DNA of 35,065 bases, from positions 1-35,065 of the forward strand of contig JAOXFI010000036.1 in assembly GCA_029232285.1 (NCBI GenBank). The letters are read 5' to 3'. Within the stretch, counting starts at the first letter, position 1. Every line of letters starts with the position of its first letter. Both the position numbers and the translations under genes were made by a program. The notes under the pieces are model-generated. The model was not told the DNA's origin. It worked only from the letters and a program-made list of their open reading frames with translations, and ran no database searches. This DNA comes from Agmasoma carcini (nom. nud.). Its lineage: Eukaryota > Microsporidia > Thelohaniidae. Below, in pieces: positions 2,244 through 29,915 of the stretch.

Positions 2244-3299
2244 ACTTTTATGGGTATAATTTATTTATTTATTTATGATCTCACAAGAAATTATTATAAT
2301 AATTGATTAAGAACAGTATTACTACATAAACAGAGCAAAATATTGCTTTATTGTTTTAATTATATATTAATACTTTGTTGATATTGATAATAAATATACT
2401 TGAATAAAGAGTTTTATATCTTATAAATCATGTTGATTTAAAATGATATTTATCTTTATTATATTTTTTATTATTTTTTATTTATTTTTAAATTACAAAC
2501 ATGTACAAGAAAAAAAATTATAAAACTCTGGCCAGTGCCTTACATAAATATAGAATAGTATATAATATTAATCAATAAAAATAATGTTTAATGATTTATA
2601 AATTGAAAAAAGAGCAACCAAACAATTTCATAAAGATATCAGTAGTAATAACACTTACAACATCTTTTCTAAAAGGAAATGATACAAAGATTTGGTGTCT
2701 TGTTCAATTTCACCCCAGAAGATACTAAACAAAAAATAGAACAATCAATGTTTATCATTTTAGTTTTCTTACCTTCTCAGTGCATCCACTGATTCATAAA
2801 AAGGTAGAAATCTATTATTGTTATGACAAATATACTTGCAACAACATTATAATCTCCTCACCAAGGGCTACATATTATAGCATCTTTAACAATAAAAAAT
2901 CAAAACTGCATACTAACCGCTTTTAACAAACAATCCTACCGGTGTATACTGTGTAGTCTATGGATACTTTGATAGCTTTTTCTTGAAATATCAAAAAAGT
3001 TTTGAGATCGCAAATCCAAACAGTACCAAAAATCAGTATTTAAAGAAATATTTAAAGATATTAAAAATAAAATATACTAGCTTTGGGTTCAAACTCTTAT
3101 ACGTTATGAAATATAAATAAAAACAACACAAGATTCAATCTCTTATACTTATAAATATAATGATAATATTTCATGAATTGTCATATTTAGTTTAAAAATA
3201 AATTCTTAAATATTCAACATTGTCAATTTAATATAATGTTTCTCGAACTAAATGAGCGGTGAGGCAATATTAAAATAAATTCAAAACCTTTTTATTTAA
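2244..3299. other. Long AT-rich intergenic stretch, no gene seen
   Basis: No open frame of convincing length and no tRNA. 2640-3120 is slightly less AT-rich and could be old transposon sequence, but no protein family could be recognised in any frame. Confidence 0.4.
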
Positions 3300-4275
3300 A
3301 CATAAATGATTTCTCTTGAACTCCAAAGATTAAGAAAATTTAATCATCTTTCGAAAATTTCCCTCATAAATTAGAGTTGGTACTTGAAAACCCATCATAT
3401 TTCAAACATTTTAATTCAGTCTCGTTTCTAGCAATATCTCTCACTACCAGATTCTTCTATTTAGAAAAACAATTCTCGATAGGATTCAAAAATGGTTAAT
3501 ATGGTGGGAGATATAACAAATTAAAACAACCATTTCAGCCAAATTTTAAACATCATAATATGATGAATTCTAGCATTATCTAAAATAAAACCAGATTAGA
3601 ATTTAAATTCCTTCACAATGTTGTTTCATTTTAACCAAACAAGATTTAAAAGCGTCACCATCAAACGGGCACAATAAATTTTACTGTATAGCATACAGTA
3701 TGTGTTCATCGCAGCAAAAAAAACAGAAACGCTTCTTGTCTTTAGAGCAGGAGCATTTGCTGTTGCTGGACTACCGACTAATTAACGCCTCTAGATGTTT
3801 TTGTCTTCTAGGGCTTACTCCAGTTTCTTATATTTCCTTGTATATATCTCCTTCGGATTTATTGTATTGTTACAATTTTGTCTCTCGAGAACTATTAAAA
3901 GCCGTTTTAAAAAATGATGAAATTTATTTAGGCACCCATCAATAGTGCATGTAGAAATACGGATGTAATAATTTTCAATAAGCTGATTTAACATATAATT
4001 AGGTATTAATGTACAACACTCGTTAATTTAGCCACATATTGCTTCTTTGGCTCTAAGCGTATTTTAGAACGTCTATCACCACCCCTGCTTTTTGATTGAA
4101 CAGATCCAATATCAAGATAATATCTTATAATTCTTGATACTGTTTTATAAGAGGTTCTAGACCCCTTGCAATTCTCATTATCGATTATTCAGCATCAGCG
4201 TTTACTATAATTTTCACCTTTTCTTCTTGTGAGATTTGTTTTTGCCAGACATTAGGGCAAAGCAAAAGAAAAAAT
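3300..4275 (-). mobile_element. Degenerate Tc1/IS630-like transposon
   Basis: Reading the minus strand from about 4270 downwards gives, in order: an HTH-like N-terminus (YKTVSRIIRYY, then SKSRGGDRRSK) near 4150-4060; the segment GSPATANAPALKTRSVSV with AAMNTYCMLYSK near 3770-3680, which precedes the DDE core in such transposases; FDGDAFKSCL near 3650; a decayed LDNARIHH-like block near 3560; and a decayed NPIENCF-like block near 3470. All are split by frameshifts and stops. The open frame on the other strand at 3700-3945 is a shadow of this coding region. It resembles the element at 33930-34960 in the last block. Confidence 0.7.
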
Positions 4276-4559
4276 AAAATATATTTTAAAAATTCATTAT
4301 AATTGTATTCTCATATTGATTGCATCACCACTCATAAAGATAGAAAACCCCTGAAAATACAAAAATAAATGTAAATATTCAAGTTTCCAAAAAATATATA
4401 TAATTTTTGATGCTGTTTAGGCATGTGATCTCAAAATAAAAATTTTGAATAAAAAACAGCTATACTATAAGCTTTCGATTGAATTTATTGTGTATTTAAC
4501 ATTTGATAAATAAAATAGTTTTAAAATCAAATTCTTATTAGTTTAATTCCTTTATATCC

Positions 4560-5290
4560 TAAAAAGGCAATAAAATATCACTATCTGCTTTTGAATCCTT
4601 TTCAACATATAAAATTTAGATGGTATTGAAATGCACTATGTTTTTTCACTCACATTTTTTAAGTATTTTGATTTTACTATCTAATCAAGATCTTTCTATG
4701 GCCTACATATATGCATCATTCAGAGGATCGACATAGTTAGATTGATTATTGACGGTGTAATACACATAATTAAGACCATTTGGATTTGAATGACTTTGTT
4801 ATTTATCTGAAAATATTACTGAGCCTTTTTCCATTTTTTGTATAATAGGTATTAATGTTGATCTATCCCTATTTTAAACATAAAAAACATACATTCATTA
4901 TCTTTCATTAAGCCAAAAACTCAAGCCCATCGATTCTATTGCCAAGTTATTATTATTTATCATGTTTGCTTTAGGATCAATCAAGCCTGCTAGATCATCA
5001 CTCTGTAATAAGCGATCCTTATTACCTTTTCTTCTTCCTACAAACTCAGATTCGTCTATTTGAACACGGTGTTCTAGAGTGTCTAACATCTTATTTCTAT
5101 TTTTAATTTTTACTATTTCTGAACAAAAGCTAAGAAAAAAATTGAACAAATTACAATGGTGCACTATTTCTACTAGTTAATTGTTGTATTGTTCTATAGA
5201 AATTTCTATAGAAAAAGAAAAAACAAATTCCATTATTTGACAAATTGTCAATTTTGATGTTATTATTTCATATATATTTAAAAATTTATT
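4560..5290 (-). mobile_element. Degenerate ISXO2-like transposase remnant
   Basis: The minus frame 5164-4898 encodes VQIDESEFVGRRKGN, the first catalytic Asp region of ISXO2/IS1595-type transposases, followed by an LSFWLNER stretch (family WVFG..ER). Further on, broken frames continue with GSVIFSD (about 4820), YVYYTVNNQSNYVDP (about 4770-4730) and an IERSWLDSK-like block (about 4700), matching the family's HSD..Y, HxxxNFVDP and IESxWxxxK order. Stops and shifts show that it is dead. About 300 bases on either side (4276-4559, 5291-5699) show nothing recognisable. Confidence 0.72.
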
Positions 5291-5699
5291 AAGTTAATAA
5301 TTTTGGTAATTAACATTTCTACACCTTAAAGTAACATTAATATTTCCGTTTTTTTAACTTCTTATAAATCACCCCCACAGCGATAAAAAATTCTTACTTT
5401 GTCTATTTCATCTTTTAAACTATGTCTCTTTAATCAATTGCTTTGATTTTTCACTAATAATATCATGAATTTCGTTTGCTTTCGTGAATTGCTTATATAA
5501 AAATGTTTATAATCAATGTTTGTTATTATTTACTCATAATATACATATAATATTTGGATACTTTTAATCTGTACAGAAATATTAAAAAACGATTAAACTA
5601 TAAATTATTTATTCAAATTTATTATAATTGTTTGTAAAAATAAACATTATATTGTAAACATATACACAAAAATATTAAAAGGCTATTCATTATCATATA

Positions 5700-6600
5700 A
5701 AAAATTACCATTTTTTATTATTATAGAAATATTATTATAAAATCTTTTTAATAATTTTTAAAAATAATTTATCACAATAAGATTAATTTTTTGTTTCCTG
5801 ACGATATTCATCAATTCATATTCTTTTCAAAAATACTTAAATTATCATACGACACACCTCTTCTTGATTTCAGTTTAATCTTAAAACGTGACCATACACT
5901 TTCTATAGTATGAGTATGTTCTCTTCTCTAGTGTCTTACACCTTTATTGTGGTTAATTATACTATGTCGACATCCAAAGTTTTCAACAGCTGCAGGATAA
6001 GATAGAAATCATCTGTTTTGATAAAGTGTCAATTCATTGTGTTATTTTTAATAAACATTTCAAAGTTTTAATTGATCTGTCAGGTAAAATTTCAAATCTT
6101 ATTTCTTTTGTGATTTCACATATTGCACCAAAAATTCATCAAGTACCCCGTTTTTCAGTCTTTATAGTTATGGGTTTGAAAATAAACTTTCTAGACAAAC
6201 ATTCTGTTTCATCGATTTTTATTGACCTCCCAATTTCTCCAATTTTATCTCTCTGACCAACAATATCACTAATTGCTTTAATAAAAATGTTTTTGAGTTA
6301 TATATAAGTTTTTTTCGTTTATGTTTAATTGCGCAACAGCTGACAATTTGGTTTTTTGTATACATATAAATATGCGGACAATACAATTTTGTTGATTTTT
6401 ATTCTTGAGAAATTGATGTTCAAAATTCATTTATCTTATATTCTTTAAGATATATATTGCATCTTAATACCATACCAATTTTGTGTTTTTTGACTCTAAC
6501 TTCTTACACTCTCTCAAACAATACATTTCTCGACAAACATATTGACTTTTATCAGTTATTTTAAAAATAAAAAGTGTTCTTTCACAATCAATTAATTAAA
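5700..6600 (-). mobile_element. Degenerate ISXO2-like element, inverted copy of 32690-33610
   Basis: Minus-strand frames give a YIDETECLSRK-like block near 6220-6190 (first catalytic Asp), SYPAAVENFGCRHS and INHNKG near 6000-5950, then EHTHTIESVWSRFKIKLK near 5930-5880 and RRGVSYDNLS near 5860. These are the ISXO2 landmarks in order. The nucleotide sequence matches the plus-strand element at 32690-33610 in reverse complement over about 900 bases, including non-coding parts (TTGTCCGCAT near 6375 and a GAAAGAACAC-type block near 6570). The plus-strand frame at 6026-6256 is a shadow. Confidence 0.75.
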
Positions 6601-6639
6601 TAATATTAAGATCCCATCTTCTAGCCCAATGGGCTGAAA

Positions 6640-7600
6640 CATGTGTACCAAAAATTATATCCGAGATCACATATCCAAACAGCACCGGAATTTCACTATT
6701 AAATTTTTGCAATTTGACCTGTATATTAAAAAAGTTTATTATATCTAATAATTCATCAGCTTTTTTTGTTATTCTAAAACTAACAAAATTCTTAAAGAAA
6801 CAAAGCCTCGGTGTTGTTTTAACAGCTTTATTTCTTTTTAACTTAACCTCATTGTTAAATGATTCAACACTTTGGGTGTTGACACCATTGTCAGTCTTTA
6901 TAAAGTGATATTTATGACAAAAGTTTTTATATATGAAATTGTATTTGTTTAGATTAAAATAAACTTAATGCTCATCCGTCTATATAACACTAACGGAATA
7001 AAACTGAAACTAAATTTGGGGTATTATGGTCTCATATTTCTTGTTTGGTAGTATACTAGCATAAGCCTTTTCAATGGCATCATTACACATAACAACACAG
7101 ATGGCATTAGTATTATTTAATTGAGAACTTCACCTGTGACTTTTAACCTTATTTTACATGGTTTTACTTACCTGAACAAAAAAACAGCCCCATCTCTATC
7201 TACAAGCTTTAAAATCAGAATTTGGCATATTTTCAATAAATTTATATACATTTTTTTATTATCAACTAATGTTTAATAAAGTTTTATTTAATGCAATATA
7301 TTGGGTATTTTACCAGGAATCTTATACGAATTGTCAATATAATCCTTATATCACATACAAATTCTATTTCTAATTGAAAAATATTTGGCGTGATTTTTGC
7401 AATAAAGTTCGTAACATCTCAACGAAACCTGTCGATATTTCTATTATATGGTTTTAGAATTATTACAGAAAGACAATTCTTTTAATTCTTGTTATAATTA
7501 ATAATTATTTTATTAATTCATATTGTCACATAACCCTTATACACCTTTCTAAGTTCTTCTTGACTTTACCAACCAGAACCTTTTTTACAAGAAAATAATT
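6640..7600 (-). mobile_element. Degenerate ISXO2-like transposase of a second subfamily
   Basis: Minus-strand frames contain NNTNAICVVMCNDAIEKAY-like sequence near 7110-7060, an IYTDEH block near 6970, then KNFCHKYHFI (about 6910) and GVNTQSVESFNNEVKLKR (about 6890-6840), which are ISXO2/IS1595 family hallmarks (HSD, H..HF.D, TQ.IES). The sequence differs from the neighbour at 5700-6600, so it is a separate subfamily. Frames are broken in several places. The plus-strand frame at 6714-6908 is a shadow. The upstream (N-terminal) limit is uncertain. Confidence 0.62.
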
Positions 7601-7829
7601 TGCAATGTTAAGAAGTGCAAAATAAGTTTAAAATTAAAATTATTAAAAATTTTATAAATATTTCTGTTTTTTATTTGTGACACATCTTCTCTTAAAATAT
7701 ATTAATCAATCTATTGTTCAATATTTGATCACATTGCACAATTTTTTCTATTAGAATATTTGAGATGCACCAAGAAACCTTTCATATTATTAGTGTGTGT
7801 TACATCGGGACTCTTAAATCCTTGCGGTG

Positions 7830-8800
7830 ATAAATTATAGAATTCAACAGTTTATAATGACAAGATAGCTTGTTGAATTGCAACCATGTTTAAAAAGACG
7901 AAGCGCTTTTTATTTTACAGTATTATCAATTCAAAATTCTGGATTAGAGAATTTTTTTATTAATATCATGCCACTTAATTATTTTTTAAGAAATATTGAG
8001 TTATTGTTAAATAGTAACGATAATTTAATTACATTTCTACAGGATTTGGGTATATTAAAAAGGAACTATTTATGCCCAATCTGTTGTTTACCCTGTATAA
8101 TATCAAATTATACAAGCAACGTAGATAAGAATGTTTTTAAGTGTTTTAATAAACCCCGCGCCAATTTTAAAAATACTTAACTTTTGGTTAAATAATACAA
8201 CAGTTATTAAAATTGTCAATTTAACTGGATTATCCAAGAAAACGATAATTAAATTTTATAAAAGTTAAATTCAAGGTGTATGGATTATTTTGATGCGCAT
8301 TCTGATGATGTTGGGAGAAACGGGTATTGTTTGTCAGTTTGATAAAAGTCAATTTAAACAATAAAAGAAAAATCAAATTGTATGTAACAGAATAATGATC
8401 TATGGGTGTTCGGTATCGCTGTACTTCATCAATATCTTCCAAAGTATACACGGAACATATTACTGATAGAAGTGCGCTGAGTTTATTACCTATTATTAGA
8501 TGAGTCTATAGAGAGGGTACAGTGATCCATTCTGATAAATGGTGATCATATTCTTGAATATACTCTCGTCTTGGCTTGATTCATTGCACAGTTAATCATG
8601 GTGTTATTTTATTGATCTTTTAACCTCCACACATACTCAGAATATTTAGTCATATTGGGAAAAGGTCAAGACACGCATAAAAGCAAAATAGTGCTTAAAA
8701 CTACCAGAATAAGAGTTTTATAGCGAAAATGAAGACAAAAGGCAACATTATTAAAGGTGATTTTGAAAAATTGATTATATTAAAAAAATTTTTTGTTAAG
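7830..8800 (+). mobile_element. Degenerate ISXO2-like transposase
   Basis: An open frame at 7878-8180 (100 aa) carries the N-terminal part, ending with a zinc-ribbon-like LCPICCLPC and CFNKPRANF. Downstream, in broken frames: FWLNNTTVIKIVNLTGLSKK (HTH region, 8185-8245), VCQFDKSQF (8325-8355, first catalytic Asp kept, the usual Glu replaced by Lys), a VIHSDKW-like block near 8525, the HCTVNHG block near 8590, and a THTQNIESYWEKVK-like block near 8630-8690. The order is that of full ISXO2 transposases, so this is a nearly full-length dead copy. The minus-strand frame at 8230-8451 is a shadow. Confidence 0.75.
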
Positions 8801-9381
8801 AGGGGTGAATTTTACACCTGATCCAAAAAAATAGTATTTATATATTTGCTACCTATTAAGACCAGATTACTAACTCTATTGAATGAAAAACATCTTACAA
8901 CATAATTTTATTGCCTGTATTTAATTGTTGGCACAGAGTGTTTGTAATCATAAACCACATCTTTTTTTGGCAAAAACATAGTATTTCTTTGTTCATAAAT
9001 AATTCAAAAGATAATTTATTATTTTACAATATTCTGTCCCATATGTTATTATTGTAATAAATAAACTTTTGTGCCAATTTCAAACCATCCAAAAATATTA
9101 CGGAGAAGATTTACGTATAACAACACATATGCTTAAACCTTCACGATTAAATCAATTTCGAAAAGTACGTGGGCTAGCATACACGTTTAAATCGTTATTC
9201 GCTATTTTTGATTTATATTTGATGTAATTAGCGAAACCCTTTCGATAAATTACTTCCTTTTTTAATCATTAATAAAGCAAGTCTTCCAAATCATTTCTTA
9301 TTTTATTTTATCATGTATATTATATCTTTACATATATTATGTACTGTATTGATATATAGATTTACCCATATATAAGTGTTT
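8801..9381. other. AT-rich intergenic stretch, nothing recognised
   Basis: No supported gene, tRNA or transposase motif in any frame. It may contain the decayed 3' flank of the preceding element. Confidence 0.35.
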
Positions 9382-9690
9382 TTATGGCTCTGCAATGAGT
9401 CCAGACCACCACGTGCTGCAAAGTGGTAACGTTTGAAACAACAGCTAATTACGCTATAACAGACCATGGCCTAAAGCCGGGCCGTGGGGATATGGATAAC
9501 CTTGTTCACTCTGGGAAACTGGTTTGCGGTAAATAGACAGACAACTCTTCTCCTTTGGCAGGGAAGTGCTACTTGGGGATTTCGAAGATATAAGCTGGTT
9601 GGTGTGCATAATAGCACTAAGCCCAGCTTACAATATAAAATGGTGTCTTTAAAGTCTTATTATAAGATGGTTAAGGTGACATGACAATTA
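9382..9690 (+). other. GC-rich, hairpin-rich island, possible structured RNA or repeat
   Basis: Base composition jumps sharply against the AT-rich surroundings. Visible stems: CCATGGCC (9464-9471) with GGCCGTGG (9480-9487), eight pairs with one G-U and an 8-base loop; TAAGCTGG (9591-9598) with CCAGCTTA (9623-9630), eight perfect pairs enclosing GTGC (9604-9607)/GCAC (9614-9617); and ACCAC (9405-9409)/GTGGT (9423-9427). The 66-aa plus frame at 9484-9684 has no recognisable domain and is probably incidental. Motifs are shared in order with 872-1041. It could be a structured non-coding RNA, part of a retroelement, or a diverged repeat; strand is not established. Confidence 0.42.
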
Positions 9691-10004
9691 ATTTTTTTTA
9701 CTGCCTTTTACAAAGCACGAATATTGTAGAGTCATTATCACCGCAATTCTGTCCATTTTATCATTGTTGTTTGATTTAGAAATTTTTACTTGCTGGTTCA
9801 GCTTTTCTCCTATGGTAAGTTTATTGATAATTAAGATTCCTTGTAAAAAACGTGAATATTAGCGGAGAGGTTTCCAATCGATACTATTTTATGTTTTTTC
9901 ATATTTTTGCCTAGACAAGCATATTCGACAAATAAACTATTATTAAGGTATTTTTATGTAATAAATACAATTTAATCAATGTTATTTACTTTTACAGTTC
10001 TTTG

Positions 10005-10163
10005 ACACATTATTTGGTATTTTTAATGAATATACGTCATTATAAATATAAAAATAATAAAATTTCTTGTATAAAGTTATGTATTTTATTTTAAAAGACA
10101 TTTACTCATGATATAATCTGGTGTGGTCATAATAGCTTTTCCGTTTTTTTTTTGCCAATTCTG
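10005..10163 (+). mobile_element. Right-end fragment of a Tc1-like element
   Basis: This segment matches the right end of the complete element at 30944-32262. It has the shared run TTATAAATATAAAAATAATA, then GGTCATAATAGCTTTT and the terminal CCAATTCTG followed by TA at 10164-10165. No intact left end or transposase could be seen upstream, so it is a truncated copy. A further decayed end of the same kind may lie at 9728-9758 (TAGAGTCATTATC, then CAATTCTG). Confidence 0.65.
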
Positions 10164-10165
10164 TA

Positions 10166-10802
10166 TGTCTGATATTTGATATAGAGTATAATTTGGCAGT
10201 TAAATGAGAAAATCTCATAATATTTAAAAACGAAACTATCATAAAATTATAATAAATTGTTAACAATACTTAATATATTTACTATATTTCCTCAACATCA
10301 TGGTTTAGAACAGATAAAAGATAAATAACAGAAATATAATCAGACAAATTTTACAACAAATTATATATTCTTATTTGATTGATATATAATGAGCAAAAAC
10401 TTGCTATTTAAAAACCACACACATTTGTTTATACAACTTTAGCGACATTTTAGCATTTAAAACCTTTTTAAATACATTTTTGAAAATTCTCAGTAAAATG
10501 TTTATTTTTATTTATTTTTTTCTTAGACAAGATTCCAATCGTCACATCTTATCTTAATATAAAATATAAATCATTTATTATATAATTTACGCTCGAAATG
10601 ACATGTTATTGACTTCCTTTTGTTTACACATCATAATTAAAACAAATCATATCTTAAAACACGTAACTTTCACCTTTTTAATATTACATTCACCATGAAA
10701 CATTCTAAATCTATTCTTTTTATATTTTTACGCTTCCAACAACAAAAAATCTTTGATTTCCAGAATAGATAGCCAAGAACAAAACATATGAAATCTATCA
10801 AG
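10166..10802. other. AT-rich upstream region of the Not1 gene, no gene seen
   Basis: No open frame or RNA gene is supported. An ATG at 10788 opens a short frame that is out of phase with the Not1 frame. It lies upstream of the box at 10803-10811, so it would be absent from a transcript starting just after that box. Confidence 0.4.
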
Positions 10803-10816: not shown

Positions 10817-13800
10817 ATGGAAACAGATTCTAAACAAACCCTTAAATCTGCTATAAACAAGTTGTTTCCTCCTTCAAAGACATCAGTTGATTCAGTTTTT
10901 GCAAGGATCAAAGAGGAAAGAACCATTTCTAATTCAGAAGTCGCAGATCTGCTTCTATTCATGGCAGACACCTCTGATCGCCAATGGGACATCTCAATTG
11001 TTTTAAAATCACTAAACGCCCATTTCAACTTGGCTTGGAGAGATATTTACCATTGTTTGACACAGAAGGACTTCTTATGGACCATCGACTCACTTTATCT
11101 AATCATCGATGCTTGGGTGTCTCTAAGTGGAATAATCACAGTGCCGTATGACATTCTTTTCACAAAATGGCCAAATCGGGATCATCAAATACAATTTATC
11201 AAATCTTTAATTGAATGTGATCAGTATAGAGTTCAAATTTTCTCAAATATTTACTGCAACAAACTTGTTTCTAAAGAGGAGCTTAGAAATAATAAATTCA
11301 AGAAAACTTTGGAGTACGAATCTAACTTTAACACAATACAATTGTTTAAAACCATAGAAATGATAGATTCAAGAGAACTTATAGAGTATATCAAACAGAA
11401 ATCACCAGAGTATTGTATTTTAGGATTATTGGAGGTTTATCCATCATTTGAAGACACTTTTAAGCAATTACTTAAGCACTTTGGTGAAGGCACAAGTTCA
11501 CATTTCATATTTTATACAATGTTCAATAGAAAATCTGATGTAGTACTCTCATCTTTGTCTGAAATCTCATTACCAATCACCAAAGTACTTGATATTCTAT
11601 TAGAGAATAAAATGTTAAATCTGGTGACTGATTCTCATCAGCCCACCGATTTTTGTTTTGATCTGATAATACTTAGCTCTAGGAGAGACAGTCTTAATCT
11701 TTTGGTCTGGCTTGATCATCTACCCTTATCAAACATTGGGCCTTTCGTTTCATACCTGGAAAATAGAATATACAGTGAATCTGAATTGACACCTGGTGAT
11801 AATGGACAGGCTGATAAGATTCAAAGAACCAGAGAAAATACGATGTTCCCACTTACTCCAGAAATTTTACTAACCATTATGAACAAAATTGAAAAGATAA
11901 TAGAAGTTGGGAGAAAAGAGCAAGAGGGAGATAGTCCAAGAATCGAAGTTTTAGAAGATATTTATTTAGAAATGGAAAGAAAACTAATAAAATTAAAAAA
12001 TACGTTTACACCTCCAAAACACACAACCTATGATCAAGCATCACAGCTTATCAATGAAATTATCAACACAAAGACAGACACAGACATTTCTATTTATAAG
12101 ATTGAAAAATTGACTGCAAATTCACCTAAAATGCTTAAGAAGGTCTTTACTATATTAACAGAGAGCTTCCCTAGTCTTCACAGACTACCTAATTCAGATT
12201 ATTTATCACAATTTTTTGGTGAATTGATTAAGAAAGGAATTTATCCAAAGCCATATTTAGGAATTATTTTAAATCAAATTAAGAAAAGCTTGAAATCACC
12301 ATCGTCTGAGCGAGAATATTCATTTCACTTTTCTCTTTGCACCGCTTTCGTTTCTGAAATGCCATCCTTTTTGAACGATATAGAAGGAATAGAATCTGTG
12401 AGAAATGGTTTAATTAAGAAAAATCTTATACTTGTTGATGAAGACAGTCAAAACCAAATAAAACTAGAATCTTTATTAGACATCGTACTTGATAGTAGTG
12501 ATGGAAACGAAACCTGTATTGATATGGTAGATACATTTATCGAAGCCAATAACTCTAACAACAACAAGTATAATACTTCTATTCGGGCATTGTTGCTGAA
12601 GCTAATATCAAACACTGATGATGATGGGTTGGATGGTATTTTTGCATACGCGCTTGCTCAGAATGACATCTTTATTGATTTGCTGATTGAAAAAATTTCT
12701 TTAATTGCTCGTCTAATGTTCTCATATAAGGTAGACAATGAAATATTCTTTGTTAAACAGTTGGGAAGCTTATTTGGAACTATAACATTAGGACAAAACA
12801 AGACAATTCCATTGTCTGTCTTTGACATCAAATCTTACCTTCTGAAAGCCATCGAATATAGGAGAATTACAGTTGCTGTATTTTTCTGTGCTTCAATCCT
12901 AGAGCAGAGCTTGAAAGGAATAATTTTTATACCTAAAAACCCTTGGCTAATGGATATTTTAAAAATATTTGGTGAACTCAGTACATGCACTCCGATACAG
13001 AATAGGGAGAGGATCACAACTTTATACAAAACATTTAATTTAAAGTTGGTACCTCGACCATTTAAGATGAAAGATAATCTGTTAAGATATAAAATAGAAT
13101 TTGATGGCAGTCTTAGACAGGTAATTGCTTCTGCCCTTGATTATTCTATTAGAGAGGTTTGTTCACATGTCTTGAGTAAAACCTTTGAATCAATATCACC
13201 GACGGCTAGAATAATTGTTCAGAATCTTAAATTGACTGATTTAGACTCCTTCAGAACTGTTTTTATAAACCTAGTCCAATTCTCTGTACGATATGCTTCT
13301 CATTACCCTCTTAGAGTGGCAATGGTGACTAACCTTAACTATTTCTTAAGATTATCTGCTAATGATCTCAATACTGAGCAAAAGAATAATATTATTGCTG
13401 TAAACCTATCCATTTGCATACAGTTGATAGAAAAGGTTGGTGCTTCACAAGCATTTGATTTGGCCACAGAATTATTTTATAGAGATAGAACAAGTCAGTA
13501 TAGATCTACAGATGGCACTTCTTTCACACATAAGTTTTCACTTTTCTCCATTTCTGGATCAAATTATGTAGCAGACAGGAAGCAAAACCCAGAACTTGAT
13601 TATAAGACGCCTAGTGATCCAGTTGTTATACAATTATTTAATGATAACTTTCAATCACTCAAATTACTTCGTAAGCCAACTCATCTAGAGAAGATTACAA
13701 TTAGGGTGATCGAGAACTATGAATTACAGGAGATTAAGTCTTTCCTATTACAACTTGGTAGAAGTGTTAGCATATCAAAGAGAGATTTCATCTCAGAACA

Positions 13801-15268
13801 TTGGAAGGGGTTGCTTACAGATTCAAAGTACGCTGTATTTAATCAGATAATGGACTTTTTAAAGAAAAGTAATGATATAGATGATCAATGTACCATACTT
13901 TGTAAATATCTTGTAGGCCAAATTTTGAAAACAAAATCACCTCCAAAGTTTATTTTTTCCGTGATTTCAAGAGTTTTAGATTTATCCCAAAAAGCTAAAT
14001 CAGATGTAGTTGGATGGATTGTCTATTCAGATGATCCTAAAAAGTTTAATCTTAGCCTAGTAGAAGGTTTTATAGAAGTAAATCTGCTAAATGTGAGAGA
14101 ATATGACCAGAGTCTAGCTCGTTCTTTAAGAAAAGATGAAAATAAGAACATTCCGTTTGCGTTAGACTTACTCAGTAATCTTTTGCTAGATGATCTAAAG
14201 TCTTGTTCTGTTTTTGACTTTATACATACAATAGAAACGTTGAACAAACATACAAATAATCATAAAATACAAAATTTCTTTGGAAAAGTTGAATCTTTAA
14301 TGATAAAATTTCCACCAGTACGACAAGTTGACTTTGATTTATTGATACAGTACCCTAATTATAACTTTATAGACATTTTTAAACATTGTTGGTCACATTT
14401 CACTAGAAACACCGGTGTATATAGTTATTACAAGATTGATGCTATGTCTTCGTATATTTACAACATACATTCTGCTCTAGAGGAGTCTCTTCCTATATTT
14501 TTACAAGCATATGAAAAATCAAATTATTTATTTTTTCCTTTCTACCTTAGATTCCTTAAAAATTGTTTAGATGGATTAGAGCGGTCACACACAAATATAG
14601 AAATAATTATTGGCCTTATTTCCTTGCTTTTACCTTCTAGAATGCCTGCTTTCTTCATCGAATTCTTAGAAATAATTGATCACAAATTCTTATATGAAAC
14701 ACTACGACAGTACGGAATGAAGTGGGCTCGTGATTGCTTGAGTGTTCTAAGTCATAATCATCGTCTTGAACCTTTTGTGGTCAGGTTTTTCCTAAAGCAC
14801 AAAAATCTTTTTGAAACCCACTATTTGTATTTAAGTTTTCTAACACCAGAAGCCTGTGTATCTCTTAAAAATTTATTTAATTCTGTTAGACCTAAATTAT
14901 TGTCAAGTGGACTCAATGATCTTAACGAAGGAAAGTTCTATAACTGTGATGCCTTGAAGTCATCATATGATAAGAATATTAATAGATATTTTAATACCTT
15001 TTTATTTTTATCTAAGGGTATTAATTATCTTGGAAATTACCATTATGTTGTAGATCATATGGCTGAGAATCCCCATGCTAGGGAAGTGTTTCTTTATTAT
15101 GTAAAAAATAAGATGTTTGATAGAGAAATTATATTACTTCTAATGATACGTAGACATGCTCCTCTTTGTCCGTCTTCGTTAGAGTCCCTCTTTAAGGAAA
15201 TTGAAAAGAACCCAAGCGTTAGAGAGATCATAGACCACTACATGTCAAGATTTTTTAATAAATTGTAG
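10817..15268 (+). CDS. NOT1: CCR4-NOT complex scaffold subunit Not1 (CNOT1)
   Basis: Scaffold of the CCR4-NOT deadenylase complex, which shortens mRNA poly(A) tails and represses translation. This intronless 1483-residue protein carries the CNOT1 landmarks in order. The N-terminal region has FNLAWRDIYHCL (about 69-80) and the conserved FDLIILSSRRDSL (about 281-293). The Caf1-binding MIF4G-like region ends with LGSLFGTITLGQNKTIP and NPWLMDIL (about 645-710). The DUF3819/CAF40-binding segment has ALDYSIREV (about 765-775). The C-terminal Not1 domain has MPAFFIEFLEIIDHKF (about 1275) and FETHYLYLSFLTP (about 1331). It is much shorter than human or yeast Not1 (over 2000 aa), with linkers trimmed. 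The start is set by the box at 10803 and homology from about residue 60. AATAAA (15257-15262) lies inside the last codons. PDCD5 starts only 39 bases downstream. Confidence 0.92.
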   Translation: METDSKQTLKSAINKLFPPSKTSVDSVFARIKEERTISNSEVADLLLFMADTSDRQWDISIVLKSLNAHFNLAWRDIYHCLTQKDFLWTIDSLYLIIDAWVSLSGIITVPYDILFTKWPNRDHQIQFIKSLIECDQYRVQIFSNIYCNKLVSKEELRNNKFKKTLEYESNFNTIQLFKTIEMIDSRELIEYIKQKSPEYCILGLLEVYPSFEDTFKQLLKHFGEGTSSHFIFYTMFNRKSDVVLSSLSEISLPITKVLDILLENKMLNLVTDSHQPTDFCFDLIILSSRRDSLNLLVWLDHLPLSNIGPFVSYLENRIYSESELTPGDNGQADKIQRTRENTMFPLTPEILLTIMNKIEKIIEVGRKEQEGDSPRIEVLEDIYLEMERKLIKLKNTFTPPKHTTYDQASQLINEIINTKTDTDISIYKIEKLTANSPKMLKKVFTILTESFPSLHRLPNSDYLSQFFGELIKKGIYPKPYLGIILNQIKKSLKSPSSEREYSFHFSLCTAFVSEMPSFLNDIEGIESVRNGLIKKNLILVDEDSQNQIKLESLLDIVLDSSDGNETCIDMVDTFIEANNSNNNKYNTSIRALLLKLISNTDDDGLDGIFAYALAQNDIFIDLLIEKISLIARLMFSYKVDNEIFFVKQLGSLFGTITLGQNKTIPLSVFDIKSYLLKAIEYRRITVAVFFCASILEQSLKGIIFIPKNPWLMDILKIFGELSTCTPIQNRERITTLYKTFNLKLVPRPFKMKDNLLRYKIEFDGSLRQVIASALDYSIREVCSHVLSKTFESISPTARIIVQNLKLTDLDSFRTVFINLVQFSVRYASHYPLRVAMVTNLNYFLRLSANDLNTEQKNNIIAVNLSICIQLIEKVGASQAFDLATELFYRDRTSQYRSTDGTSFTHKFSLFSISGSNYVADRKQNPELDYKTPSDPVVIQLFNDNFQSLKLLRKPTHLEKITIRVIENYELQEIKSFLLQLGRSVSISKRDFISEHWKGLLTDSKYAVFNQIMDFLKKSNDIDDQCTILCKYLVGQILKTKSPPKFIFSVISRVLDLSQKAKSDVVGWIVYSDDPKKFNLSLVEGFIEVNLLNVREYDQSLARSLRKDENKNIPFALDLLSNLLLDDLKSCSVFDFIHTIETLNKHTNNHKIQNFFGKVESLMIKFPPVRQVDFDLLIQYPNYNFIDIFKHCWSHFTRNTGVYSYYKIDAMSSYIYNIHSALEESLPIFLQAYEKSNYLFFPFYLRFLKNCLDGLERSHTNIEIIIGLISLLLPSRMPAFFIEFLEIIDHKFLYETLRQYGMKWARDCLSVLSHNHRLEPFVVRFFLKHKNLFETHYLYLSFLTPEACVSLKNLFNSVRPKLLSSGLNDLNEGKFYNCDALKSSYDKNINRYFNTFLFLSKGINYLGNYHYVVDHMAENPHAREVFLYYVKNKMFDREIILLLMIRRHAPLCPSSLESLFKEIEKNPSVREIIDHYMSRFFNKL

Positions 15269-21075: not shown

Positions 21076-23055
21076 ATGAAAAAAATAACTTGCGTTATTG
21101 CACATATAGACCATGGCAAAACAACTTTGATCGATAGCCTGATTGCTTCAGATGGTTATATCTCTAAATCTCTTGCCGGTGAGCTAAGATATCTTGATAG
21201 CCGTAAGGATGAACAAGTCAGAGGAATTACGCTTAAGCTAACACCAATTGAGCTGTCAGATGATCATATCATATTGGACACCCCAGGCCATGTTGATTTT
21301 GAGCATTTGATTTTTTGTTCTTCCATCTATTCTGATAATTTTGTTATACTTATTGATGTTAACGAAGGTATAACACCAAGAACTTACAGTTTGATAAAAT
21401 TTGTTAATAAGAAAAGGTGTATATTGGTACTAAATAAGATCGAAAAGGTTGTTGACGATTGCTCTCTTGAGTCTATTCTTTATGAAATGAATCATTTAAT
21501 GGGTGATGATGTATTTTCATGGGATAGGAACAATGTTATATTGAGTTCGGCTTCGTTGTGTGCAGGTATTTGCTATTCAACAAATACCTTTTCAAAAATA
21601 AATACGATAACAAGTGCCTTCAAGGCATTCTCAACTCTTAGATATAAAATTCGGCAAAATGATGTTGAAAATTTAATTAAAAAATATAAAATTGCTGTTC
21701 CAAGTGAAAAGGCAATCTTGAGATCAGTCTTTCCTCTCCACAAGATTATATTTTATTGTATAAATAAATTAAATATCACGATAGATAATCAAACACCCAA
21801 TCAAGGGCTTGATTATCATAAGTTTTTAAATATATATGGGGACATTAAACCTTCTTTTGTTGGTATATGCGTTTACTCTCTCCTTAAGGATAAAAATATG
21901 CACACTATTGATGGTTTACTGCATATTGTTAGAATATTTGAAGGAAAATTATCAAAACGAGAATATTTTGCTATATCAAAGAATGGAATTAAGAAAATAA
22001 ATATAAAATGTATTAGAAGGTTTAGAGTTGATGGGTTTGATGAGATAGAAGAAGCATTTGGGCCTGATTTGGTGTGCATAGAAGCAGATATTGATAAGAA
22101 TACTCTTATTTGTGATGTTCCTGTAGATTTTAAACTTCATAACACACTCTCTCCATTTTTTAAGTCCAAAATAGTAGTAGATGATTTGGAAGATGTCGAA
22201 AATATTAAAGATAGTTTTCGTTGTATGTCATACACGGAACAAACATTGAGGGTTGTTATGAATAAGTATTGTGAGTTTGAGGTGAGCTGTGCTGGTAAGG
22301 TACAATATGAGAAAATTTTGAATGATCTTTGTGATATGGGGTATGCTTTGAAGAGTATGGATATAAATCTTCTTTTTAGAGAGTTTTCTACTTTATCAGC
22401 TGAGAAGAGACATAGATCTGAAGATTTAGATGTATATGTTAAGATATTACCATTGTCTGAAGCGTTTGATCATGATGGGTACTCATGTATAGATACTCCT
22501 TACTGCAATCAGTTCTGTATAAAGAGTGAAACTGATTTTGAATTGATAGAAAGTGTTCTTGAGATTTTTACTGAGAGTGGTATTCTTATTAATGAGAGGG
22601 TTATGTTTAGTAGGTTTGTAGTTGAACTAAGGAGTACATCTAGTGTTAATATATTCAATATTCTTAAGAATATAGTACAATCAGTTTATAAAAGTTCATC
22701 TCCTGCTGTATGTCCACTTTTTTATGAAATTTGTATATCAATTGAAGAAAAATATTTAGGATTGTTATATATTTTGCTACAGAAGTATATGTTTGAGATG
22801 GTGGATGAGAATTATGATGAGAATCTATCTTTCTTTGTGGTTAGGTGTTTGGTTCCACAATTTTTGTTTAATGATTTTGTGGATGAATTAAGGATAAATA
22901 CTAAAGGGACGGCATATCTTACGGTTACTGGTTCTAAATTCCTTAGGGTTGATAAATTTAGGTTATATGTTGATAAGATTAGAAAACAAAAGGGGTTGCT
23001 TATTGAGGAGGTGATTATTGATAATCCTAATAAGCAGAGAACACTAAAAAAATAG
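21076..23055 (+). CDS. RIA1: Elongation factor-like GTPase 1 (EFL1/Ria1), 60S maturation
   Basis: EF-2-like GTPase that, with SBDS/Sdo1, releases the anti-association factor eIF6/Tif6 from cytoplasmic pre-60S subunits. The G domain has AHIDHGKTT (9-17), RGIT (49-52) and DTPGH (68-72). The EFL1-specific stretch LAGELRYLDSRKDEQVRGIT (33-52) separates it from EF-2. The guanine-specificity motif reads NKIE (120-123), not NKxD. The C-terminus has EF-2 domain V features (FFVVRCLVPQF; TKGTAYLTVTGSKF) and ends KGLLIEEVIIDNPNKQRTLKK-like, the typical EFL1 tail with EKQRTL. At 659 residues it is far shorter than yeast Ria1 (1110), with insertions lost. AATAAA (23058-23063) starts two bases after TAG. 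It is divergent from tRNA-Ser, 75 bases apart. Confidence 0.9.
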   Translation: MKKITCVIAHIDHGKTTLIDSLIASDGYISKSLAGELRYLDSRKDEQVRGITLKLTPIELSDDHIILDTPGHVDFEHLIFCSSIYSDNFVILIDVNEGITPRTYSLIKFVNKKRCILVLNKIEKVVDDCSLESILYEMNHLMGDDVFSWDRNNVILSSASLCAGICYSTNTFSKINTITSAFKAFSTLRYKIRQNDVENLIKKYKIAVPSEKAILRSVFPLHKIIFYCINKLNITIDNQTPNQGLDYHKFLNIYGDIKPSFVGICVYSLLKDKNMHTIDGLLHIVRIFEGKLSKREYFAISKNGIKKINIKCIRRFRVDGFDEIEEAFGPDLVCIEADIDKNTLICDVPVDFKLHNTLSPFFKSKIVVDDLEDVENIKDSFRCMSYTEQTLRVVMNKYCEFEVSCAGKVQYEKILNDLCDMGYALKSMDINLLFREFSTLSAEKRHRSEDLDVYVKILPLSEAFDHDGYSCIDTPYCNQFCIKSETDFELIESVLEIFTESGILINERVMFSRFVVELRSTSSVNIFNILKNIVQSVYKSSSPAVCPLFYEICISIEEKYLGLLYILLQKYMFEMVDENYDENLSFFVVRCLVPQFLFNDFVDELRINTKGTAYLTVTGSKFLRVDKFRLYVDKIRKQKGLLIEEVIIDNPNKQRTLKK

Positions 23056-27712: not shown

Positions 27713-27713
27713 T

Positions 27714-28877
27714 TTATTCGTCAGATGAAATGATAAATACACTAGAATCACCTTTTTCATCATTGCTAGAACTATCTTCAGCGTACTTCTGTAACGATGA
27801 GAAATTATTGATATTTTGTTTTTGAAAACTTTCGGCTCTATTACGCATTACAAGCAAAAAATCGTTAACATGTAATCTTAAAAGAGGCGACATCCTCTCA
27901 AAAAGCATATCAAACTCATCAATAGTCACAGGCGTATTCTCAAGCAACATTAACACCTGTGAATCTGTCATTATATAATAAACACTCTCATCATTTTGCT
28001 TAGCTATATGTTCCCTAAGTTGTAATATTTCTGATAAAAAAGGACAGTTGGTGGGTAAAATATTTCTTTTCCTAAAAGCTTCCTCGGGATCAACAATATC
28101 ACTAGGCACAAAAATTTCTGAAGATGTGCAAGAATTAGAAAGATCAATGGTTAGCTGCAGTCCTTCTACCATCATAGACACTAAAATATCATTCAATGGA
28201 CGAATCCTCCAGTCCACATACGTATGCTCATCTTCTTCAATATCAAAATTCTTATAACAACAAATCTGACCAAAGTCAGAGTACAATCTTGATACGCACT
28301 CCCTGCAATGTATCAATTTAACCACATCACACGTAAGAAGTCTAAGCTTAGGTATTAACTTCCTAAATCTAATTGCATCTATTAAATAAATGGTACCATC
28401 CATGTTATATATTGATATATAACAGCTAAAGCCTCTATAGGAGCGATAGGAGTGATCAAGGACCATTAAAGCTACTTGGTTTAAGGTTTGATCAACCTTA
28501 AGAAGGTCATATTTATTTTTTAGCTCGTAGTATCCTTTAATATTTTGAAAACTTTGAAATTTTATGTCTGTAGAGTGGCATGCTTCTGTTAATTTTTCTA
28601 CTAATTTAATTTCTGGTTTTGGAATGTCTCTAGATATGATGGCTCGTATTATTTTTTCTTTTCTTATGTATAAAATATCACTTGTGTTGGGATCTTCGGG
28701 CTTTTTTAAAAGCTCTTGTAAGTTTGATTCAGCATTTGCCAGCTTAGACAATAGATGATTGATCTGGTCTTTAAGTAATTCTATGGCATCTGAGGCATCA
28801 ATTTCTTTTTTATTTACATCTTTTATAAACATATTTAACTCTTTGATAAATTTGGAGCTTAGTTCAACAATTTTCAT
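27714..28877 (-). CDS. RRP6: Rrp6/EXOSC10-like protein with degenerate exonuclease site
   Basis: Related to the nuclear exosome DEDDy 3'-5' exonuclease Rrp6. The family match rests on DHSYRSYRGFSCYISIY (141-157), the family diagnostic VDWRIRPLND (221-230) and a C-terminal HRDC domain (about 282-345: LREHIAKQNDESVYYIMTD ... SPLLRLHVNDFLL). The catalytic residues are gone. Motif I D-x-E reads M138/L140; motif II has no Asp in HCRECVSRL (190-198); motif III Y...D reads M235/G239. About 25-30 residues between FDI and VDWR are also missing. The N-terminal PMC2NT domain appears reduced to a helical segment, and the tail is acidic and serine-rich. It is 387 aa against 733 in yeast. Probably a structural or RNA-binding exosome cofactor, not a nuclease. 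AATAAA (27713-27718, minus) overlaps the TAA stop. Confidence 0.8.
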   Translation of the reverse strand: MKIVELSSKFIKELNMFIKDVNKKEIDASDAIELLKDQINHLLSKLANAESNLQELLKKPEDPNTSDILYIRKEKIIRAIISRDIPKPEIKLVEKLTEACHSTDIKFQSFQNIKGYYELKNKYDLLKVDQTLNQVALMVLDHSYRSYRGFSCYISIYNMDGTIYLIDAIRFRKLIPKLRLLTCDVVKLIHCRECVSRLYSDFGQICCYKNFDIEEDEHTYVDWRIRPLNDILVSMMVEGLQLTIDLSNSCTSSEIFVPSDIVDPEEAFRKRNILPTNCPFLSEILQLREHIAKQNDESVYYIMTDSQVLMLLENTPVTIDEFDMLFERMSPLLRLHVNDFLLVMRNRAESFQKQNINNFSSLQKYAEDSSSNDEKGDSSVFIISSDE

Positions 28878-29915
28878 ATGGCCAACTAATTTTAAAAAAT
28901 TTAGTTCTAAAAAAATTACCGGCTTTTTCTAGTTCTAAAACTAAAAATTTTACTTATCAATGTAAATGTAATGATTATACACGTGTTATATCATTATATA
29001 GTAGCTATAACAATACTATCCTATGTGTATCAACCAATAAATATACTATACGTGCCTATCAAGCAACTAATCATCATAATTATAAAAATTCTATTCTATT
29101 TTCAACCACAAAATAAATATTGTAGGTTTTTAGAACAAAATATTTATATAAACTCCCTAATGGCGATTATTTACCAAAACTGTGATTACTATTATATTAT
29201 TTGTTTATTATAAACCATTTGTATGATATTCTCTAATATGTATCATTATGACACATAGTGCTTGGCCTAAATCATACAAAATTATTACTATGTCCGAATC
29301 TAAGCATTGACCTCATCATTGTGTATAATATTCAATTATTTGCCACCAAAACATACAAATAAACTCGTTTGGTAATTGAAAAGTGATACTTTAATGCTAA
29401 ATGTATTATATTATCATTTGATAAGATCAAATATAAGTACTGATCATAATATATTTTATAAACAATCAAGTTTAATTTTCAAGGCTTAAATATGGTATGA
29501 AATAAGCCTATTTAGAGGTATAAATAATGTATTGATGTATATTTGAATATTAATAGAACCCTTGTGTCTTATATTAATTATATATTATGGCTATTAAGTG
29601 TTAACAATCACATTATATTTATATTTTACATCATTAGCTAAAAATTCATCAATTTTCTATAATTACAATATTTATACGTAATCACATTTAATAAATATGT
29701 AAAATATTTTATTCTTACTATCAAGCCCTTACAAATAGTTTTATTTACGTTAATACTCACCACAATCAATTTTGGTATTAATTAAGCAATTTATAAGGTT
29801 AATTTTTGGTATTCCAATTAAAAATGAGTTATTTATCACATCATTAATCAATCACTTATTTGCATTCTTTACTTATGTTTTATTTTAACACTTTTCTTTT
29901 TAATATTTTATTTAT
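28878..29915. other. Intergenic between the divergent Rrp6-like and RING genes
   Basis: AT-rich. The plus frame at 28971-29213 (80 aa, rich in Ile and Tyr) has neither a box nor a recognisable family and is thought random. Nothing else is identified. Confidence 0.4.
28894..28902 (-). promoter_or_regulatory. AAATTTT-type box before the Rrp6-like gene
   Basis: AAAAAATTT on the plus strand, in a near-palindromic AATTTTAAAAAATTT context, sixteen bases before the ATG. This is the widest spacing in the set. Confidence 0.45.

Follow-up and report, generated by a model that had tools for sequence, protein, structure and literature searches.

The whole 35,065-nt contig JAOXFI010000036.1 of the microsporidian Agmasoma carcini (assembly GCA_029232285.1; 4,263,419 bases in 69 contigs), hereafter the window, was analysed with respect to an Rrp6-like gene on the reverse strand, whose product is derived from Rrp6 and probably works without cutting. 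The open reading frame (ORF) was found where a preliminary description made from the letters alone had placed it, and the upstream box and AATAAA named there were found as well (Table 1). When the window was shuffled 60 times by mononucleotide, the longest ORF beginning with ATG had a mean of 86 amino acids (aa) and a maximum of 128, against 387 aa for the Rrp6-like ORF. AAATTTT was seen by eye upstream of 6 of the 8 window ORFs examined, a count from AT-rich DNA without a chance control.

Table 1. Positions in the window of the Rrp6-like gene, its signals and the segments of its product (residue numbers refer to the window protein)
Feature	Position	Strand	Detail or basis
Rrp6-derived gene, predicted pseudonuclease	27714..28877	-	387 codons + stop
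AATAAA, overlapping the stop codon of the Rrp6-like ORF (GAATAAATT)	27713..27718	-	sequence
AAATTTTTT box, 17-25 nt upstream of the Rrp6-like ATG	28894..28902	-	sequence; similar boxes at several other window genes
Pseudo-EXO (former DEDDy) domain, residues 111-250	28128..28547	-	
Former motif I, D238>M138 and E240>L140	28458..28466	-	alignment + hhalign
Region of former motif II, residues 190-194 (HCREC), without the catalytic Asp; CxxC in the family	28296..28310	-	alignment
Site between residues 203 and 204 at which 25 residues of canonical Rrp6 are missing	28268..28269	-	common to 7/7 family rows
DWRIRPL, residues 222-228, kept Rrp6 signature	28194..28214	-	alignment with canonical rows
Former motif III, Y361>M235 and D365>G239 or deleted	28161..28175	-	alignment
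HRDC domain, residues 282-341	27855..28034	-	Pfam PF00570 E=2.7e-7, above cut-off
Short tail of 42 aa (residues 346-387) following the final modelled HRDC helix	27717..27842	-	low model confidence

Domains, structure model and relatives

The window protein has the order of canonical Rrp6/EXOSC10 from yeast, human and T. brucei, an RNase D-like EXO domain followed by HRDC. Two Pfam families had been named in advance for checking this: HRDC (PF00570) scored 30.9 bits against a cut-off of 23.8 and was matched in 6/6 scanned family members at E<=1, and PF01612, the EXO domain, gave no Pfam match in the window protein. A structure model built from a 37-row alignment (predicted local distance difference test score, pLDDT, 81) was submitted to fold comparison, in which the EXO domain showed an RNase D fold closest to Rrp6; this fold, followed by HRDC, bears out the descent from Rrp6 that had been proposed. 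An earlier model from 6 rows (pLDDT 66), whose fold matches likewise placed RRP6 first, was superseded. For the N-terminal PMC2NT domain, through which canonical Rrp6 binds Rrp47, a whole-chain structural alignment to 5c0w_K extends to model residue 2 at a root-mean-square deviation of 21.

Six predicted relatives (P0001-P0006) were 30-40% identical to the window protein over most of its length. The nearest named relatives were two Hepatospora eriocheir proteins. Scoring in the family profile search was confined to the 7994 candidates with most words in common and could therefore miss more distant members; in a viral library the top matches were all distant ones to nucleases and polymerases. 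In a tree of 37 rows the seven family rows were separated from the others by a 100/100 branch; their placement within eukaryotes is not interpretable, given the length of this branch and the unusual composition of several rows. Since P0003 and P0004 are near-identical, the seven rows amount to six independent ones. P0005, from a Joint Genome Institute (JGI) metagenome, bears the name 'exosome complex exonuclease RRP6' at its source and is without the catalytic residues.

After HRDC, an FS(I/M)xxLK motif was observed at 27798-27830 (-), clear in P0002-P0005 (4/7 family rows) and less distinct in the others, with the P0001 sequence ending at it; it is a possible docking peptide.

Loss of the catalytic residues under conservation of the domain

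D238, E240, D296, Y361 and D365 (yeast numbering) were taken to be the catalytic residues of Rrp6. D/E/D/Y/D stood at these positions in 121/121 canonical rows, which consist of yeast Rrp6 and the best 120 of its 871 matches and were hence picked for likeness; no microsporidian was found among the named rows of those best 120. Seven family rows and 30 canonical rows were then aligned and cross-read with hhalign. In the order window protein, then P0001 to P0006, the family carried M/A/A/E/E/E/Q in the column of D238, L/F/F/F/F/F/L in that of E240 and M/I/I/L/L/V/I in that of Y361; the D296 column was a gap or, by hhalign, the column of C194 (C/C/D/C/C/C/C), and the D365 column a gap or, ungapped, G/Y/T/S/S/G/G. 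The canonical residue was thus gone in all seven rows at four positions, D238 being replaced by the conservative Glu in three rows, and the Asp of motif II was possibly retained in one of the seven (P0002).

Exact gap positions at motifs II and III, the latter inside model helix 230-248, still differ between aligners, and it depends on the aligner whether the two Asp are substituted or deleted; the window protein is without them either way. The replacements read by eye in the preliminary description (D and E by M138 and L140, no Asp in motif II, Y and D by M235 and G239) therefore hold in the alignment with 30 canonical rows, and its proviso that the acidic residues might be displaced but present finds no alignment reading in the window protein. 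The roughly 25-30 residues it had reported gone ahead of VDWRIRPL came to 25 columns, between DFG (203) and QICCY. Flanked by the motif II helix and DWRIRP, this stretch carries the canonical FDT..HSLAYLL and was missing in 7/7 family rows. Placement of the deletion by MAFFT with yeast only was wrong and was corrected with the 30 canonical rows and hhalign.

The DEDDy two-metal residues are lost in the window protein. Unlike canonical Rrp6, it is without all five catalytic residues and 25 further residues and has no tail of EAR or lasso size; kept from canonical Rrp6 are H142, R145, C152, D167, K187, DWRIRP (with Y for W in P0003 and P0004) and R288 and E297 of HRDC. Loss of the site was shared by its relatives, a point that had been raised for checking together with constraint, for which conservation was used as the measure in place of dN/dS (the ratio of nonsynonymous to synonymous substitution rates). 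Over the 15 pairs of six rows, mean pairwise identity was highest in the EXO domain (111-250), at 44%, followed by HRDC (275-345) with 36%, the linker with 28%, residues 1-60 with 26% and the tail with 17%. That the former enzyme domain is the best-kept part speaks against decay. A chance ORF or a pseudogene in decay, with nothing in favour of either beyond the lost site itself, was rejected as extremely improbable on the shuffles and this domain-wise conservation, along with the six relatives, the AATAAA at the stop and the upstream box. In predicted fold, active-site residues and conservation, the window protein agrees with the exonuclease-fold pseudonucleases (nuclease fold, no catalytic residues, protein conserved). 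Among 42 family-invariant residues, 17 depart from the canonical majority.

Around the former active site (28257-28580, -), cysteines were gained in the window protein and P0001-P0006. In the EXO region they made up 36/837 residues in six family rows against 78/5,728 in the 30 canonical rows. C100, C183 and C207 occurred in all seven family rows and are atypical for canonical Rrp6, in which the column of C183 is P in 27/30 rows. C191 and C194 form a CxxC at former motif II in 6/7 rows, P0002 being without them and having CIGC at 204-207; C102, which makes a CxC with C100, is found in 6/7 rows and is Ser in the window protein. Our guess is that the set may be a zinc site in place of the catalytic metals.

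Exosome components and other genes

The window gene was the only match in the assembly when the window protein, yeast Rrp6 (E=0.03) and the canonical P0121 (4e-4) served as queries, so that the second Rrp6 considered in the preliminary description was not found by these three proteins. The PF01612 search of the assembly returned nothing and missed the window gene as well, and is not readable as absence. PF01138 yielded no ring protein, yet one was subsequently detected with yeast Rrp41 as query (E=1.4e-7), which makes negatives from family searches weak in this assembly. PF04000 (Rrp47) gave no match in the assembly and none in any control genome either.

A Dis3 homologue was present (best match RRP44, E=5e-74), of 797 aa at L002:385-2778 (C8), with RNB, from residue 362, as its only Pfam domain above cut-off. 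It reads DPPNCTDIDD, fitting the DPxxxxDIDD signature (PMC8097288). An RNB-intact Dis3 supports the suggestion that cutting was left to this enzyme. No PIN domain was detected in it by Pfam at E<=0.1, and its endonuclease site may be missing too. Mtr4 (match to MTR4 2e-122 vs Ski2 3e-83) and Rrp4 (PF21266, E=4e-31) were also encoded.

Elsewhere in the window, 10817-15268 (+) encodes a CNOT1/Not1 homologue of 1483 aa, and a CAF1 homologue was found elsewhere in the assembly (C24); parts of the deadenylase core are thus kept. An EF-G-like GTPase of 659 aa lies at 21076-23055 (+), with GTP_EFTU above and EFG_C below the cut-off, and may be a shortened EFL1. The longest stop-to-stop frame in 2265-10768 (~8.5 kb) has 122 aa, and six fragments of this stretch scanned with Pfam gave no match above the cut-off; a transposase likeness that we presumed at 6599-6964 was unsupported by Pfam.

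Proposed role and comparison with known exosomes

We consider it fairly probable that the only Rrp6-like gene found was made a pseudonuclease before the clade diversified and has a non-catalytic exosome role beside Dis3. The computed basis is the Rrp6 fold with HRDC, the lost DEDDy residues, the loss of 25 residues, the sharing of these across the clade, the conservation of EXO and the presence of the partners. With the EXO/HRDC module kept and the known chemistry lost, the likeliest role is non-catalytic help for Dis3 and Mtr4. In yeast, the module is seated on the S1/KH cap, decay in cells without Rrp6 is restored in part by an inert form of it, and Rrp6 protein stimulates Dis3 (PMC5322736). 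The window module would still sit on the S1/KH cap and help Mtr4-delivered RNA into the channel toward Dis3, which would carry out 3'-5' degradation alone; such a role would match the non-catalytic one proposed for inert yeast Rrp6.

Several observations weigh against this role. Tethering of yeast Rrp6 needs the EAR, and a C-terminal EAR and RNA lasso of yeast size have no room in the 42-residue tail (in yeast Rrp6, of 733 residues, the EXO-HRDC fragment reaches no further than residue 528; a shorter tail substitute is possible), while P0001 stops 16 residues past the column ending the HRDC match. Stimulation of yeast Dis3 also requires the lasso (PMC5322736). Pfam was silent on PMC2NT and hhalign gave it a probability of only 7% for the N-terminus. 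The PF04000 search, empty in the control genomes too, Drosophila, where inactive Rrp6 mutants are dominant negatives and inert Rrp6 is therefore not harmless everywhere (PMC4577213), and Plasmodium Rrp6, which has MKIE for DEDD and is reported active in vitro, although mutation of MKIE did not end the degradation (PMC7267889), belong on the same side.

The short tail, the N-terminus and the Drosophila dominant negatives leave room for another complex. Rrp6 may have left the exosome, its dead EXO domain and HRDC serving as an RNA- or protein-binding module like EXD1, Maelstrom and Exuperantia, pseudonucleases of a sort listed in PMC8097288; the family-specific invariant residues and the new cysteines would agree with this. 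We regard it as unlikely, since the exosome partners are encoded and the retained DWRIRP and HRDC favour the old partner.

Appreciably less probable still is a nuclease working through an altered site, by other residues, another metal or a relocated acid. Plasmodium shows that an Rrp6 without DEDD is reported to degrade RNA (PMC7267889), Glu stands at the motif I Asp position in 3/7 rows, P0002 has its Asp at motif II, and conserved Cys could bind a metal; yet none of the five positions has an acidic residue conserved across the family, all rows replace the motif I Glu by L or F, and the adjoining 25 residues are deleted. We give as little weight to a second, intact Rrp6 missed through an assembly gap, introns or divergence, with the window gene as its paralogue. 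The assembly may be incomplete, and family searches overlook divergent genes, as PF01138 did the ring protein and PF01612 the window gene; against this, no canonical EXO domain came up in the assembly with PF01612, and the yeast Rrp6 and P0121 queries would be expected to pick up an Rrp6 that is intact and less diverged.

The non-catalytic role beside Dis3 can be compared with known systems. EXD1, Maelstrom, Exuperantia and Ssd1 (from Dis3L2) likewise have a nuclease fold without catalytic residues and act as RNA-binding or scaffold proteins (PMC8097288), but are of other families, whereas the loss described here concerns the sole Rrp6 that the assembly searches returned. Plasmodium also has a parasite Rrp6 without DEDD, reported missing in every species; the authors call for more experiments on the recombinant protein (PMC7267889). 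Unlike it, as far as its published description rather than aligned sequences allows comparison, the window protein belongs to another lineage, has lost all four acids and the Tyr and carries an extra deletion, with the domain still the most conserved. A claim of the first Rrp6 without DEDD was dropped because of this precedent, by which inactivity has to be measured. The Giardia exosome resembles the present one in having no active Rrp6 (here a prediction), and Rrp44/Dis3 is proposed as possibly its sole nuclease (PMC3282835); unlike Giardia, for which the available text of that article reports no Rrp6 found at all, the microsporidian clade kept a predicted non-catalytic Rrp6. Microsporidia are reported to be without 56 yeast ribosome-biogenesis factors (PMC8481954); the main text of that article, like that of PMC8097288, does not name Rrp6. 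No publication on microsporidian Rrp6 was recognised in the openly licensed literature searched, and PMC9960886, on hypothetical proteins of Vittaforma, does not mention the exosome, HRDC or Rrp6.

Going further, we would only tentatively picture a nuclear exosome with one active site, in which the RNB domain of Dis3 cuts alone and Rrp6 is a non-cutting platform with a possible zinc core. Proteins of this kind may automatically be named exonucleases, as P0005 illustrates. The cutting by Rrp6 and its placement on the exosome have so far been studied with engineered point mutants; in several diverged species, the site has apparently been lost in evolution while the rest of the protein persisted, and this opens the non-catalytic role to direct testing.
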